This document shows positions 27,251 to 32,579 of a stretch of DNA of 64,000 nt, one piece after another. The DNA is from Anaerobacillus sp. CMMVII (lineage in GTDB: Bacteria; Bacillota; Bacilli; Bacillales; Anaerobacillaceae), in contig NZ_JACEHK010000015.1 in NCBI RefSeq assembly GCF_025377685.1, positions 62,001 to 126,000 on the forward strand. Direction: 5' to 3'. The translations under genes were made by a program, and so were the position numbers. The notes under the pieces are model-generated. The model was given only the letters and a program-made list of their open reading frames with translations. It had not been told where the DNA came from and made no database searches. Positions within the stretch are counted from its first letter, which is position 1. Each line of letters starts with the position of its first letter.

Positions 27251-27271
27251 ATTGTTAAGGGGGAGTTATTG

Positions 27272-28330
27272 ATGACAGAAACAAATAACATCAATCGCCG
27301 TACCTTTTTGAAAAGGTCGGCTCAAGCTACAATAACAGCTGGTGTCGTTGCGACGACAAGTAATTCTGTTTTTGCTGCTGCAACAGAAACAGAAGCTACA
27401 GGATATATTGGTTCAATTATTGATTTAACAAAGTGTGATGGATGTGTAAACTATGATACGCCACTTTGTGTAACTGCATGTAAGACGAAAAATGAACATC
27501 GTTTTCCTCAACCAGAAGGTCCTTTAAAGAACTATTGGCCACAAAAACGACATGAAGATTATTCAAAAGAACAGGATCGTACGGATCGCTTAACACCTTA
27601 CAACTGGACGTTTATTGAACAAGTAGAGGTTTCTCATGATGGCATTACCGAGATGGTTTCTATCCCACGCCGTTGTATGCACTGTATTGATGCCCCTTGT
27701 CAAAAACTCTGTCCTTTTGGAGTTATTGATAAGACTGAACAGGGTGCAGTAAAAATTGATGAATTTTTCTGTATGGGTGGAGCAAAATGTCGTGATGTAT
27801 GTCCTTGGGACATCCCACAGCGTCAAGCCGGTGTAGGTGTTTATATGCACATTGCACCAGATTTAGCTGGTGGTGGGGTTATGTATAAGTGTGATATGTG
27901 TAGCGATTTACTTGCAAAAGGAGAAAGCCCAGCATGTCAAACTTCGTGTCCAACTGGAGCAGTAGAGTTTGGCCCTGTTGACCAAATGAGAAAACTAGCT
28001 CAGGAAAAAGCTGCTGAAATTGGTGGTTATGTCTATGGTGACGATGAAAATGGTGGAACGTTAACGTTCTATGTTTCAAAAGTTCCATTTGATAAAATTA
28101 ATGATGCAATTGTTAAGAGTAAAGCAGAAGCAAAAGCCAAGAGCCAAGATAAGCGCCCAGATGGTCGACCAAATATGGAGCCAAAAGTAGGCAATATGCT
28201 TGATACGACTCAAGGTTTAATGCTTGCAACGTTGATCGCACCAATTGCAGGTGCTGCAACTGCAGGTATTGCAGCTTATAAAACATTAAAAGGTAAAAAG
28301 AATGAAAGTGGTGATAAGCATGAAGAATAA
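27272..28330 (+). CDS. Tat-exported four-cluster ferredoxin, FdnH/HybA-like electron-transfer subunit
   Basis: 352 aa. A twin-arginine signal (NRRTFLKRSAQ, residues about 8-18) sends it across the membrane already folded. Sixteen-cysteine ladder: CDGCVNYDTPLCVTAC, CMHCIDAPCQKLC, CMGGAKCRDVC and CDMCSDLLAKGESPACQTSC, enough for four cubane clusters as in formate dehydrogenase-N beta. A hydrophobic C-terminal segment (residues about 315-335) anchors it. AGGGGGAG precedes the ATG at 27272. It overlaps the cytochrome b gene. No molybdopterin catalytic subunit is adjacent, so its electron donor or acceptor partner is unknown. Confidence 0.92.
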   Translation: MTETNNINRRTFLKRSAQATITAGVVATTSNSVFAAATETEATGYIGSIIDLTKCDGCVNYDTPLCVTACKTKNEHRFPQPEGPLKNYWPQKRHEDYSKEQDRTDRLTPYNWTFIEQVEVSHDGITEMVSIPRRCMHCIDAPCQKLCPFGVIDKTEQGAVKIDEFFCMGGAKCRDVCPWDIPQRQAGVGVYMHIAPDLAGGGVMYKCDMCSDLLAKGESPACQTSCPTGAVEFGPVDQMRKLAQEKAAEIGGYVYGDDENGGTLTFYVSKVPFDKINDAIVKSKAEAKAKSQDKRPDGRPNMEPKVGNMLDTTQGLMLATLIAPIAGAATAGIAAYKTLKGKKNESGDKHEE

Positions 28331-29009
28331 GAAAGAGAAAATTCTTAGGCAACCTTTATCAAACCGTTTTGTTCACTGGGGTTCAGCAATTTCAATCATT
28401 ATGCTAATTATCACAGGGTTAGGTCAGATGCCACTTTATGGACGCTATTTGCTCGTCCAACCATTTGGAACAGGCTGGTTAACAAGATATGATATAACGC
28501 TTTATGTTCACTACTTCTTTGCTGCTTTATTAATTTTCATCATTTTTTATCATCTTGTTTATCATTTAATTCGAAAAGAATTTCACATCATACCTAAAAA
28601 AGGTGATGTTAAGGCATCGTATGAAATTATTAAAGCGATGGTCATGCGTAAACACGAGCCGCCTAGTGAGAAGTATCTACCTGAACAACGATTAGCATAT
28701 GCATTTTTCGCTTTTGCAATCGGTCTAGTGATTGTCACTGGTTTATTCAAAGTTATTAAAAATATTCAAGGAGTTCAAGCATCTAATGAATTTTTGCTAT
28801 GGGGTGCTCAACTTCATAACTTAGCGACAGTCTTAGTAATCCTTGGAATTGTTATGCACTTAGGAGCCTTTGTGGTCAAGGCAAATCGAAAAATGTTACC
28901 TGGTATGTTTACAGGATACGTTGATAAGGAATATGTAAAAGAACGCCATACGATCTGGTATAAAGAGCTAGAGGAGGAAAAAGCTAAAAAGAAAAAAAAG
29001 GTAATGTAA
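28320..29009 (+). CDS. Cytochrome b/b6-type membrane subunit (FdnI-like)
   Basis: 229 aa with four spans. Candidate haem ligands are in SNRFVHWGSA, LYVHYFFA, YHLVYHLIRKEF and QLHNLATVLVILGIVMHLG, the pattern of formate dehydrogenase gamma and related diheme cytochromes b561. The ATG at 28320 is preferred, with GGTGAT upstream, and it overlaps the ferredoxin end by 11 bp. It would link quinone to the extracytoplasmic ferredoxin. The basic C-terminal tail ends 28 bp before the small UGA-containing gene. Confidence 0.9.
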   Translation: MKNKKEKILRQPLSNRFVHWGSAISIIMLIITGLGQMPLYGRYLLVQPFGTGWLTRYDITLYVHYFFAALLIFIIFYHLVYHLIRKEFHIIPKKGDVKASYEIIKAMVMRKHEPPSEKYLPEQRLAYAFFAFAIGLVIVTGLFKVIKNIQGVQASNEFLLWGAQLHNLATVLVILGIVMHLGAFVVKANRKMLPGMFTGYVDKEYVKERHTIWYKELEEEKAKKKKKVM

Positions 29010-29037
29010 GCTTTGAAACGAAAGGAGTCGAACGTTG

Positions 29038-29196
29038 ATGGCAGAAGAGAAAAAATGTAATCCCGTTAGTGGTTGAGCTGCTCCAACTTCCACTACCAAG
29101 GTTAAGCAAACAAAAATACCGTCTGTTTGACCAGGTACATGGGTATGGCTCCTGGTAGGAGTTTATTTCATCATTCAACATTTATTCTTTAAATAA
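29038..29196 (+). CDS. Candidate selenoprotein: 52-aa membrane protein with two in-frame UGA codons
   Basis: ATG at 29038 with AAGGAG 10 bp upstream, 28 bp after the cytochrome gene; the frame ends at TAA 29194-29196. It contains UGA at 29074-29076 (codon 13) and 29128-29130 (codon 31). Read as Sec (U): Cys7 and Sec13 lie in KKCNPVSGUAAP, a polar linker follows, then Sec31 in PSVUPGTWVW, directly before one span (residues about 35-51). The start, ribosome site, membrane segment and terminator position all argue for a real gene. A 6-bp stem ACCAGG / CCTGGT starts at the second UGA (29130-29156), and a weaker hairpin lies 9 bases after the first, as expected for bacterial SECIS elements. I do not recognise the family. 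Alternatives are nonsense decay or readthrough as Trp. Confidence 0.62.
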
Positions 29197-29243: not shown

Positions 29244-29273
29244 AAAAAACTACCATTTTATGGTGGTTTTTTC
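29244..29273 (+). terminator. Terminator after the selenoprotein candidate
   Basis: AAAACTACCA / TGGTGGTTTT stem with loop TTTTA and a six-T run. It is placed 48 bp after the TAA of the UGA-containing frame, which fits that frame being the last gene of the operon. Confidence 0.85.
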
Positions 29274-29337: not shown

Positions 29338-29727
29338 ATGTTTCATTATACGGTCGAAACAACAAATTCAATTAACGAGACAATTAAAAGCTTGGAGAAA
29401 AATTTAGCTGAAGAGCAGTTTGGCATCCTATGGAAATTTGATGTAAAAGCAAAATTATTGGAAAAGGGTTTGAATTTTGAGGATGAGTATCAGGTTTTAG
29501 AAGTTTGTAACCCCGTGGAAGCGGAGCGAGTGTTAAGCCAAAATAAAATGATAGGCTACTTTTTACCATGCAAAATCGTAGTCTTTGCGGATAAAGGAAA
29601 AACGATGCTAGGAATGCCAAAACCAAGCTTTCTAATTAATTCAGTAACTGAAGATGACAAAGACTTGCTAGAGATGGCTAAGGATATCGAGAAGCGTTTA
29701 ATTGATTGTATTAACAAAAGTATGTAA
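29338..29727 (+). CDS. DUF302-family protein
   Basis: 129-aa single-domain protein. YQVLEVCNPVEAERVL and GYFLPCKIVVFADKGKT with the Cys in LPCK match the DUF302 signature. The fold is a small alpha/beta barrel and the function is unknown. DUF302 proteins recur in sulfide-oxidation and thiosulfate clusters, which matches this position. GGAGGAAATGAG precedes the start. Confidence 0.85.
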   Translation: MFHYTVETTNSINETIKSLEKNLAEEQFGILWKFDVKAKLLEKGLNFEDEYQVLEVCNPVEAERVLSQNKMIGYFLPCKIVVFADKGKTMLGMPKPSFLINSVTEDDKDLLEMAKDIEKRLIDCINKSM

Positions 29728-29855: not shown

Positions 29856-30173
29856 ATGATTATGCCTTATACTGAAACGAAAATTCCTGAAATTACACCA
29901 AAAGAAGTAAAGGAAATGATAAAACAAGGAAAAGATCCAAGCCTTGTTGATGTAAGGGAATTACAAGAGGTTATGGCTGGGAAAATTGAAAATGCAAAGC
30001 ACATCCCTTTAGGAGAAGTCTTAAGAAGGTTTGATGAGCTTGATAAAGATAAAGAACATATTATTGTGTGTCGATCTGGGAATCGTAGTGAGTTAGCTAG
30101 TGAGTGGCTACATCAGAAGGGATACAAAGTAAAGAATATGGTTGGTGGCATGGTGGATTGGAATAAAAGTTAA
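29856..30173 (+). CDS. Single-domain rhodanese sulfurtransferase
   Basis: 105-aa cytosolic rhodanese. SLVDVREL(QE) near the N-end and the active-site loop VCRSGNRSE (Cys about 71) are complete, and the C-terminal VVGGM-type ending is present as NMVGGMVDW. It carries sulfane sulfur as a cysteine persulfide. Two ATGs are possible (29856, 29862) behind GGAGGTGAG. It is first in a five-gene cassette with TusA-rhodanese, DsrE-like, rhodanese-dioxygenase and TusA genes. A weak half-match to the CstR-type box lies at 29817-29834. Confidence 0.9.
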   Translation: MIMPYTETKIPEITPKEVKEMIKQGKDPSLVDVRELQEVMAGKIENAKHIPLGEVLRRFDELDKDKEHIIVCRSGNRSELASEWLHQKGYKVKNMVGGMVDWNKS

Positions 30174-30195
30174 TCGAGCTTAAGGGGGGAAAATC

Positions 30196-30761
30196 ATGAT
30201 TACTAGTAATAAAACACTAGATGCAAAAGGACTAGCTTGTCCAATGCCGATTGTTAAAACAAAAAGGAAATTGAAACCCTTGATCCAGGTCAAGTGTTGG
30301 AAATTCAAGCCACTGACAAAGGTTCAACAGCAGATATTGCAGCTTGGGCGAAAAATACAGGCCACCATTACTTGGGAACCGTTGAAGATGGGGAAATCCT
30401 AAAACATTATTTGCAAAAAGCAGATCCAAGTGAAATAAAAGAAGAAACAAAGCATCCCCATACCATTAGTATCGAGGACCTCCTTCAGAAGATTGAAGGA
30501 GATGAAAAAGTTACGGTATTGGATGTTAGGGAACCTGCCGAATATGCTTTTGGTCATATCCAAGGTGCAAAATCGATTCCCTTAGGGGAGTTAGAGAAGC
30601 GGTTCGAGGAATTAGATCAGAATGAGGAAATCCACGTGATTTGTCGTACTGACCGCAGAAGTGATTTAGCTGCTCAACAATTAACTGAAAAGGGTTTTAA
30701 AAATGTAAAAAATGTAAGTGACGGGATGAGTAAATGGACAGGTTCAGTTACTAAAAATTAA
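30196..30761 (+). CDS. TusA-rhodanese fusion sulfur carrier (one-base indel)
   Basis: N-terminal TusA domain with LDAKGLACPMPIVKTK (persulfide Cys in ACPMP), C-terminal rhodanese with DVREPAEYAFGHIQGAKSIP and VICRTDRRSDL (active Cys). The two parts are in different frames. Adding one A in the run at 30261-30265 joins them and restores the sequence shared with the intact paralogue at 36445-37011, giving about 188 aa. I treat it as one gene. This architecture resembles part of staphylococcal CstA, which relays persulfide sulfur. AAGGGGGGAAA precedes the ATG. Confidence 0.85.
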
Positions 30762-30775
30762 TAGGAGGAATTTAT

Positions 30776-31174
30776 ATGGCGACAACCAAATTAGCTATTA
30801 TTGCAAGTAACGGTGGTTTGTTTGATGCTTATAAAGTATTTAATATTGCAACGGCAGCAGCAGCTACAGATACAGAAGTAGCGATTTTTTTTACTTTTGA
30901 AGGATTAAACTTAATTCATAAACAAGCCTATGGACAACTTCAAATGCCAGAAGGCAAAGAACATTTTGCTGAGGGCTTCAAAAGTGCAAATGTGCCGAGT
31001 ATCCCTGAACTAGTTGATGTGGCAATTGAAATGGGTGTAAAAATCATTGCTTGTCAGATGACAATGGATGTGATGAATTTACAAAAAGAAGATTTTATTG
31101 ACGGAATTGACGTTGGTGGTGCTGTTACATTTTTAGACTTTGCAAATGGAGCTAACATCACACTTACATTCTAA
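30776..31174 (+). CDS. DsrE-family sulfur-relay protein
   Basis: 132-aa DsrE/DsrF/DrsH-like protein. KLAIIASNGGLFDAYKVFNI starts the fold; the conserved Cys is in IIACQMTMDVM (residue about 100), and GIDVGGAVTFLDFA ends the domain. Such proteins accept sulfur on a Cys and hand it to TusA or rhodanese. It is co-directional with its neighbours (15 bp spacing), with AGGAGG before the ATG. A longer paralogue lies at 35859. Confidence 0.88.
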   Translation: MATTKLAIIASNGGLFDAYKVFNIATAAAATDTEVAIFFTFEGLNLIHKQAYGQLQMPEGKEHFAEGFKSANVPSIPELVDVAIEMGVKIIACQMTMDVMNLQKEDFIDGIDVGGAVTFLDFANGANITLTF

Positions 31175-31187
31175 ATGAAATGGGGCT

Positions 31188-32333
31188 ATGCAAACTATGA
31201 CAGCGGGAACAACTGTTAAAGGCATCTCAGTTCAGGAATTAACAAAAAAGGTTATTAATGGTGAACGCCTATTTATATTAGATGTTAGAAATGAGACTGA
31301 TTTTGATAATTGGAAAATTGAAGGAGAAAATGTTGAGATCATCAATAAACCTTATTTTGAATTAATGGATGGGCTCGAAGCGATTGTAGATAAACTCCCA
31401 AAAAATGAACCTATTTATGTTGTATGTGCGAAAACAGGATCATCGGAGTTTGTAGCAGGGGAAATTGCAGAAGCTGGTTATTCAAATGTGTTTTATATGG
31501 AAGGTGGAATGAAAGGCTGGAGTGAATATTTAGAGCCAATCAAAGTAGGTAACTTGAGTAATGGTGCTATCCATCAATTTGTGAGAATTGGTAAGGGGTG
31601 TTTATCATATCTTATTGAGTCAGAAGGTAAAGCAATTATTGTTGATACAAACCGCATGATTGAGCAATATGAAGCCTTTTTAACTGCGCATAACCTTAAG
31701 CTTGAAGCTTGTATTGATACTCATCTTCATGCAGACCATATTTCAGGTGGTAAAAGGTTAACTGAGAAGTGTGGAGGAACGTATTATTTACCTGAGAAAG
31801 ATGCTGGTGAAGTAACATTCTCATATGAAAAGCTTGAGGATCAAGCGGAAATTAGTGTTGGTTCTATAACAGTGAAGGCTTTATATTCACCAGGTCATAC
31901 AATTGGAAGTACCTCTCTAATCGTAGACGATAAATTTTTATTAACAGGGGATATTTTATTTATTGATTCCATTGGTCGTCCCGACTTAGCTGGTAAAGCG
32001 GAAGATTGGGTAAATGACTTACGGGAAACTCTTTACCAACGTTATAAAACAGTGGCTGCAGAGTTGACGGTATTACCTGCACATTTTATGGGGATTAAAG
32101 AAATGAACAAGGATGGTAGTATTTCTGAAAAGCTGGGTGTTCTTTATCAAGAAAATCATGGTTTAAATATAGGCGATGCTGATAAATTTAGACGAACAGT
32201 TACAGAAAACCTACCACCTCAACCGAATGCGTATCAAGAAATAAGACAAACTAATATGGGGAAAATAAATCCGGATGAAGAAGCACAAAGGGAAATGGAA
32301 ATTGGTCCAAATCGCTGTGCTGTTCGAGAATAG
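31188..32333 (+). CDS. Rhodanese-metallo-beta-lactamase fusion, persulfide dioxygenase type
   Basis: 381 aa. An N-terminal rhodanese ([15 protein letters not shown], active-site [10 protein letters not shown]) is followed by an ETHE1-like metallo-beta-lactamase with the iron site [24 protein letters not shown] and [16 protein letters not shown]. The conserved tail [11 protein letters not shown] is shared with the paralogue at 37053. Family members oxidise glutathione- or CoA-bound persulfide to sulfite, and the fused rhodanese can form thiosulfate. The two ATGs (31188, 31197) are both possible. The domain order differs from staphylococcal CstB. Confidence 0.93.
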
Positions 32334-32345
32334 GGGGAGTTTATT

Positions 32346-32579
32346 ATGGATATTCAAGCTAATAAAGTATTGGATGCGAAAGGTCTTGCTTGCCCAATGC
32401 CAATCGTTAAAACCAAAAAAGCAATGGATGAATTAGGTTCTGGCGAAATATTAGAAGTGCATGCGACTGATAAAGGAGCAAAAAATGATTTATCTGCTTG
32501 GGCTACTTCAACTGGCCATGAATTAATAGGAGATAAAGAAGAAAGTGGAGTCTTTACTTTTTATATTCGAAAACACTAG
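32346..32579 (+). CDS. TusA-family sulfur carrier
   Basis: 77-aa single-domain TusA protein with LDAKGLACPMPIVKTKKAM; the persulfide Cys lies in ACPMP at about residue 18. It would receive sulfur from the rhodaneses and DsrE. Placed 12 bp after the dioxygenase, with GGGGGAG before the ATG, it is the last gene of cassette 1. Confidence 0.92.
   Translation: MDIQANKVLDAKGLACPMPIVKTKKAMDELGSGEILEVHATDKGAKNDLSAWATSTGHELIGDKEESGVFTFYIRKH

Follow-up and report, generated by a model that had tools for sequence, protein, structure and literature searches.

Small bacterial peptides and proteins with two selenocysteine (Sec) residues have already been described. The selenobacteriocin-type peptides of TIGR04081 are small, contain two Sec residues and carry the motif SGUG (PMC13188914), and the MbdU/UxxU metal-binding double selenoproteins (NF045648 and NF041115) also have two Sec per protein. 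The predicted miniprotein studied here is encoded in a 64,000-nucleotide stretch of the Anaerobacillus sp. CMMVII genome, hereafter the window. It is likewise small with two Sec, but it has no NCBIfam match to TIGR04081, is predicted to be membrane-anchored and has sulfur-relay neighbours; unlike NF045648 and NF041115, which it does not match either, its family has the two Sec spaced at 14-22 codons, on either side of a basic linker that precedes a membrane helix. Regarding decoding, the bSECIS of formate dehydrogenase (FdhA) and the element behind the second UGA of the miniprotein share a hairpin with a GG-containing loop and a CC/GG-closed stem, and they occur in the same genome with the same SelB. 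However, the miniprotein has a GGY loop, U-A closure and a spacing of +23, whereas FdhA has GGUCU at +18, and the miniprotein has an extra upstream UGA without a hairpin of its own. Regarding gene context, the yrkD-J and cst clusters (B. licheniformis, PMC9918477; S. aureus CstA) have the same CstR-type repressor, DsrE, TusA, rhodanese, persulfide dioxygenase and TauE as the loci described here. In B. licheniformis the yrkD-J cluster with sqr-pdo is induced by sulfane sulfur, and no selenoprotein or comparable miniprotein is listed in its 11-gene cluster (PMC9918477).

Pfam and NCBIfam scans of 24 diverse members gave no credible match, no entry of the 119-family selenoprotein catalogue of 2026 fits the miniprotein according to its table (PMC13188914), a profile search of the PDB returned nothing, and no description of the family was found in the literature searched. 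The original prediction, made from the window alone, had suspected an undescribed form, which agrees with the lack of a matching Pfam, NCBIfam or catalogue family. It apparently represents a new family of bacterial selenoproteins whose first UGA is unusual.

The gene occupies positions 29038..29196 of the forward strand and encodes 52 residues, MAEEKKCNPVSG-U-AAPTSTTKVKQTKIPSV-U-PGTWVWLLVGVYFIIQHLFFK when both TGA codons are read as Sec, in a single frame from the ATG (29038-29040) to the TAA (29194-29196). A Shine-Dalgarno sequence, AAGGAG (29022..29027, forward strand), lies 10 nt 5' of the ATG, and there is an alternative in-frame start, TTG at 29035, 7 nt 3' of AAGGAG. The two TGAs are codon 13 (29074..29076, UGA1) and codon 31 (29128..29130, UGA2); the codon of Cys7 (29056..29058) belongs to a C-x(2-5)-Sec motif conserved in the family alignment, and the second Sec, part of the motif [IVL]-U-P-[GA], marks where the membrane helix begins. 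The ATG follows the stop codon of a cytochrome b gene (29009) by 28 bp, and a terminator-like hairpin, AAAAAACTACCA-TTTTA-TGGTGGTTTTTT, is found at about 29244..29272 of the same strand. This layout, from the AAGGAG to the terminator and the 28-bp gap, is the one originally proposed, and every element of it was found again in the sequence. The hydrophobic C-terminal helix was also recovered: the AlphaFold2 model has one helix, at residues 32-51 (29131..29193), with pLDDT about 90, Sec31 at its N-terminal edge and an N-terminal half of low confidence. The net charge is about +3.7 before the helix and about 0 after it.

Homologues with the TGAs in place were found in a search of 101 relatives. 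A profile search of 397 genomes of the order, from which weaker matches were dropped after inspection, identified 51 carriers, which belong to more than 25 genera, and there are more members in other orders of the class and one outside the class (G1121). Named genomes scanned with a DNA pattern that demands TGA at site 2, and is therefore uninformative about that site, yielded 73 stretches, nearly all from Bacillales; the hosts include Mesobacillus, Cytobacillus, Neobacillus, Rossellomorea, Alkalihalophilus pseudofirmus OF4 and Bacillus sp. SG-1 among others, as well as Mesobacillus selenatarsenatis SF-1 and Litchfieldia alkalitelluris. Two records titled Chryseobacterium sp. ISL-80 (L163) and Pseudomonas sp. 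ISL-84 (L186) carry typical Bacillales copies and are probably mislabelled.

The family consensus reads C-x(2-5)-U-G-I, a basic linker and P-P-I-U-P-G-x-x-V-W-L-L-[VA]-G-V-I-x-L-I, with a stop shortly after. Among 100 distinct members, 96 have TGA at both sites, two have no readable site 1, one has TGA and TGT, and one is degenerate, site 1 being TGA in every non-degenerate member in which it can be read. A two-TGA frame that recurs at the same aligned codons in 96 of 100 members goes, on comparison of these sequences, far beyond chance. Cys forms are rare: G318 has TGT at site 2 (VPPICPGFFIWLLAG) and still TGA at site 1, and G758 has TGT at both sites (CSCSNCAIPF...MPICPGVLLW), its gene lying directly downstream of two rhodanese genes. 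Homologues with Sec or Cys at both sites had been named as a test of the prediction, and those were obtained; the test also asked for them behind the same two genes as in the window, and that was seen in only 2 of 53 loci. As for decayed copies, a second copy in G268 has TAG beside UGA1, on its 5' side, and in the G313 copy a Trp codon became TAG. A few members (L055, L183 and L201, among others) seem to use TGA as the true stop after the two recoded UGAs.

The stretch between the UGAs is under amino-acid selection, pN/pS being 0.21 there and 0.22 in the N-terminal part before UGA1, and an in-frame ATG, GTG or TTG between the UGAs occurs in 19 of 65 diverse members and is lacking in the other 46 and in the window. 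Given the similar values and the scarcity of internal starts, translation seems to continue across both UGAs without a change of frame.

The selA, selB, selC and selD genes, which had been proposed as a check on the prediction, were all found in the 4.87-Mb host genome, on one contig and within about 11 kb. Its tRNA-Sec scores 58.6 bits, above the Rfam cut-off, with the anticodon given as tca by ARAGORN, and the SelB match reaches 349 bits. Moreover, two ordinary selenoproteins are present: SelD itself carries an in-frame UGA (KGG-U-GCKIG; L016, 15625-16590 of the reverse strand and upstream), and so does FdhA (L251; NRT-U-HAPSV), with the bSECIS gttgcc-GGTCT-ggcaac. Since it has the four sel genes and these two selenoproteins, the host very probably decodes UGA as Sec. 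The idea that the miniprotein is the sole selenoprotein of this genome was ruled out by the UGAs of FdhA and SelD.

Within the order, 48 of the 51 carriers have selB and one more has selA and tRNA-Sec, which gives 49 of 51 with Sec machinery; the co-occurrence with selB in the 397 genomes has a Fisher p of about 1e-16, uncorrected for shared ancestry. The remaining two carriers, G268 and G342, lack selA, selB and selC. Recent transfer is suggested by their copies, which hardly differ from the one in G068 (Bacillus sp. PS06). In six Sec-decoding carriers (G055, G068, G075, G092, G120 and G328) there was no FdhA match at the threshold used.

The element that would direct Sec at UGA2 is a hairpin of 7-9 bp, found in nearly all members, whose loop, GGU or GGC, starts 23 nt after UGA2. 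In the window the stem has 7 bp (ggctccU-GGU-Aggaguu, 29147..29163, forward strand, with the GGU loop at 29154-29156), and in most members 8-9 bp. Its spacing, its length and the G at the first loop position satisfy the published bSECIS model, in which 16-37 nt separate the UGA from the loop (PMC13188914). The codons behind UGA2, TGG CTC CTG G[TC]A GGA G[TC]C, show almost no synonymous variation: the CTG is found in 65 of 65 diverse members, whereas the rest of the helix uses a mixture of Leu codons; the Leu codon 5' of it is CTC or CTT in 57 of 57; GGA is used in 61 of 64 and GTA in 45 of 46. The third base is kept as C even when Leu is replaced by Phe, Val or Gly, and immediately before UGA2 ATA is used for 50 of 51 Ile codons. 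Compensatory changes, C-G to G-C and U-A to G-U, occur in the stem of L131-L133. Paired cells amount to 96% in the hairpin as against 39-61% when it is slid, none of 1000 shuffles equalled the observed double changes, and the mean folding-energy z behind UGA2 is -1.64 +/- 0.09. A different 6-bp stem, ACCAGG/CCTGGT, originally seen starting at the second UGA itself, is not conserved, the conserved stem being that at 29147-29163. With the sel genes, the UGA/UGA homologues, the Cys forms and this bSECIS all supporting the selenoprotein reading first proposed, UGA2 almost certainly encodes Sec.

UGA1 is a different case. A local bSECIS 16-37 nt after it is absent in about 61 of 65 diverse members, including the window; hairpin rules, folding z-scores against synonymous shuffles and RNAalifold on groups of equal spacing revealed none that is general, and the mean folding-energy z behind UGA1 is -0.17 +/- 0.14. 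Thus, of the two elements for which a prediction had been advised, only that after UGA2 was recovered, and the weaker stem noted after the first UGA has no support. The published model, which places the loop 16-37 nt from the UGA (PMC13188914), therefore does not account for the decoding of UGA1 in most members. Strong local bSECIS were found in 4 of the 65 diverse members where 0.5 would be expected, so that a handful of lineages may have evolved one separately. The distance from UGA1 to the loop of the UGA2 hairpin is 65-89 nt. Since the UGA/Cys gene of G318 retains this hairpin and the Cys/Cys gene of G758 lost it, an argument that consists of one sequence of each kind, we tentatively propose, at slightly under even odds in our judgement, that in most species this one hairpin, set within the codons of the membrane helix, could direct Sec insertion at both UGAs. 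If this is true, a single bSECIS acts on a UGA 65-89 nt upstream of its loop, far beyond the accepted bSECIS range.

In the window the gene lies between two groups of neighbours, all on the forward strand. Upstream are a Tat-signal 4Fe-4S protein gene, HybA/HmcB-like (27269..28330), and a cytochrome b561-like, FDH-gamma-like gene (28302..29009). Downstream, after a DUF302 protein gene (29338..29727), is a sulfane-sulfur cluster (29856-32579) that begins with a rhodanese (29856..30173) and continues with a TusA-rhodanese, YrkF-like (30196..30761), a DsrE-like protein (30776..31174), an MBL-fold/rhodanese persulfide dioxygenase-like protein, YrkH (31188..32333), and a TusA-like protein, YrkI (32346..32579). 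A one-base frameshift in a run of A near 30250 divides the YrkF-like gene into two ORFs that overlap; the gene is either a pseudogene or misassembled here.

Across the family, no other named neighbours are nearly as common as sulfane-sulfur genes. Of 53 loci, 39 have, within about 9 kb, at least three genes of the set CstR/CsoR-type repressor, DsrE, TusA, TusA-rhodanese, rhodanese, MBL-fold persulfide dioxygenase and TauE, as against none of 22 control stretches (two taken from the window and 20 from the genomes of the loci; p about 7e-10, the related loci not being independent). Rhodanese, persulfide dioxygenase, TauE and CoA-disulfide reductase are among the direct upstream neighbours, and on a Cytobacillus plasmid the gene, unannotated there as in the other RefSeq plasmids that carry it, stands between a rhodanese gene and a membrane-protein gene, with CcdA next. 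A 220-residue membrane protein without an NCBIfam match is encoded directly downstream of the miniprotein in L271 (8205-8867), L113, L115 and L123-L125, and in some loci CcdA and a redoxin follow it. About a quarter of the 53 loci have no sulfur gene within reach, and a sulfur function is therefore not generally proved; in L129-L133, L107, L110, L112 and L140, which come from Salipaludibacillus-like and other genomes, the gene has no sulfur cluster inside a distance of about 9 kb.

Other explanations must be taken into account. That UGA is normally a stop and that the gene is unannotated in RefSeq plasmids might indicate a chance open frame, a pseudogene or a sequencing error with true stops at both TGAs; this is scarcely conceivable, being already refuted by the conservation of both TGAs in 96 of 100 members, purifying selection across both, the bSECIS with its compensations, the Cys homologues and the near-restriction to Sec-decoding genomes. 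Another possibility is that UGA2 alone encodes Sec and that a stop or read-through by another tRNA at UGA1, or a restart after it, yields a shorter, single-Sec membrane peptide, as the absence of a local bSECIS there in most members would allow. We consider this unlikely, because UGA1 is invariant among intact members except for Cys in G758, is preceded at 2-5 residues by a conserved Cys and followed by Gly-Ile, and has equal pN/pS on either side; in addition, 46 of 65 diverse members and the window offer no start codon between the UGAs, and four diverse members have the strong UGA1 bSECIS for which 0.5 were expected. Sec at UGA1 is thus very likely in our view, on these comparative grounds.

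With respect to function, the position 28 bp after cytochrome b, with the same terminator downstream, would fit a subunit or electron-transfer partner of a Tat ferredoxin/cytochrome b module of the formate dehydrogenase type. This context was part of the original prediction, and the adjacency is real; the family-wide partnership is not, since among 53 loci only two, both from the genus of the window, have the pair beside the gene. No catalytic subunit is adjacent, and a search for related loci with the cytochrome b protein of the window as query found none. Such a partnership is improbable as an explanation of the family, and the candidate role of formate dehydrogenase accessory or subunit was rejected for want of family-wide linkage to fdh or cytochrome b genes. 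Somewhat less easily set aside, though still rather doubtful, is a membrane antioxidant or metal(loid)-handling selenoprotein brought near sulfur genes by shared stress islands: M. selenatarsenatis SF-1 and L. alkalitelluris are among the hosts, some loci have peroxiredoxin-like and DUF302 neighbours, and about a quarter have no sulfur genes. Against it are the prevalence of sulfane-sulfur genes among the named neighbours, the direct adjacency of rhodanese, persulfide dioxygenase, CoA-disulfide reductase and TauE, and the Cys/Cys homologue, which also lies behind two rhodaneses.

As a whole, the explanation that we favour, a tail-anchored Cys/Sec/Sec double selenoprotein acting at the membrane face to relay sulfur or reducing equivalents, is probable. 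A role in sulfane-sulfur handling specifically stands at about even chances, judged from gene context. Both UGAs would be decoded as Sec and the product anchored by its C-terminal helix, and from the charge bias we infer that the N-terminal half would face the cytoplasm, and with it the Cys and both Sec. There the miniprotein could work with the cytosolic rhodanese, TusA, DsrE and persulfide dioxygenase proteins; it would accept reducing equivalents or sulfane sulfur by way of a Cys-Sec selenenylsulfide or a selenopersulfide and then hand them to a membrane partner. Candidate partners are TauE/SafE, CcdA and the downstream membrane protein of several loci, and cytochrome b in the genus of the window. 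It is the combination of the sulfur-gene context, the helix at residues 32-51 and the Cys and Sec on the predicted cytoplasmic side, together with the sulfur carriers, that makes a membrane-tethered relay the leading mechanism.

With the miniprotein, dozens of Bacillales genera would gain a selenoprotein family that is missing from their annotation, and Sec would have a place in sulfane-sulfur metabolism. Its tiny size and two UGAs mean that annotation programs can miss it, and the selenoproteomes of the carriers are thus probably undercounted. The gene is also a small and tractable system for studying decoding at a bacterial UGA that lacks a SECIS of its own. Moreover, as a Sec-type formate dehydrogenase was not found in some carriers, the miniprotein may help to explain why these bacteria have kept their Sec machinery.
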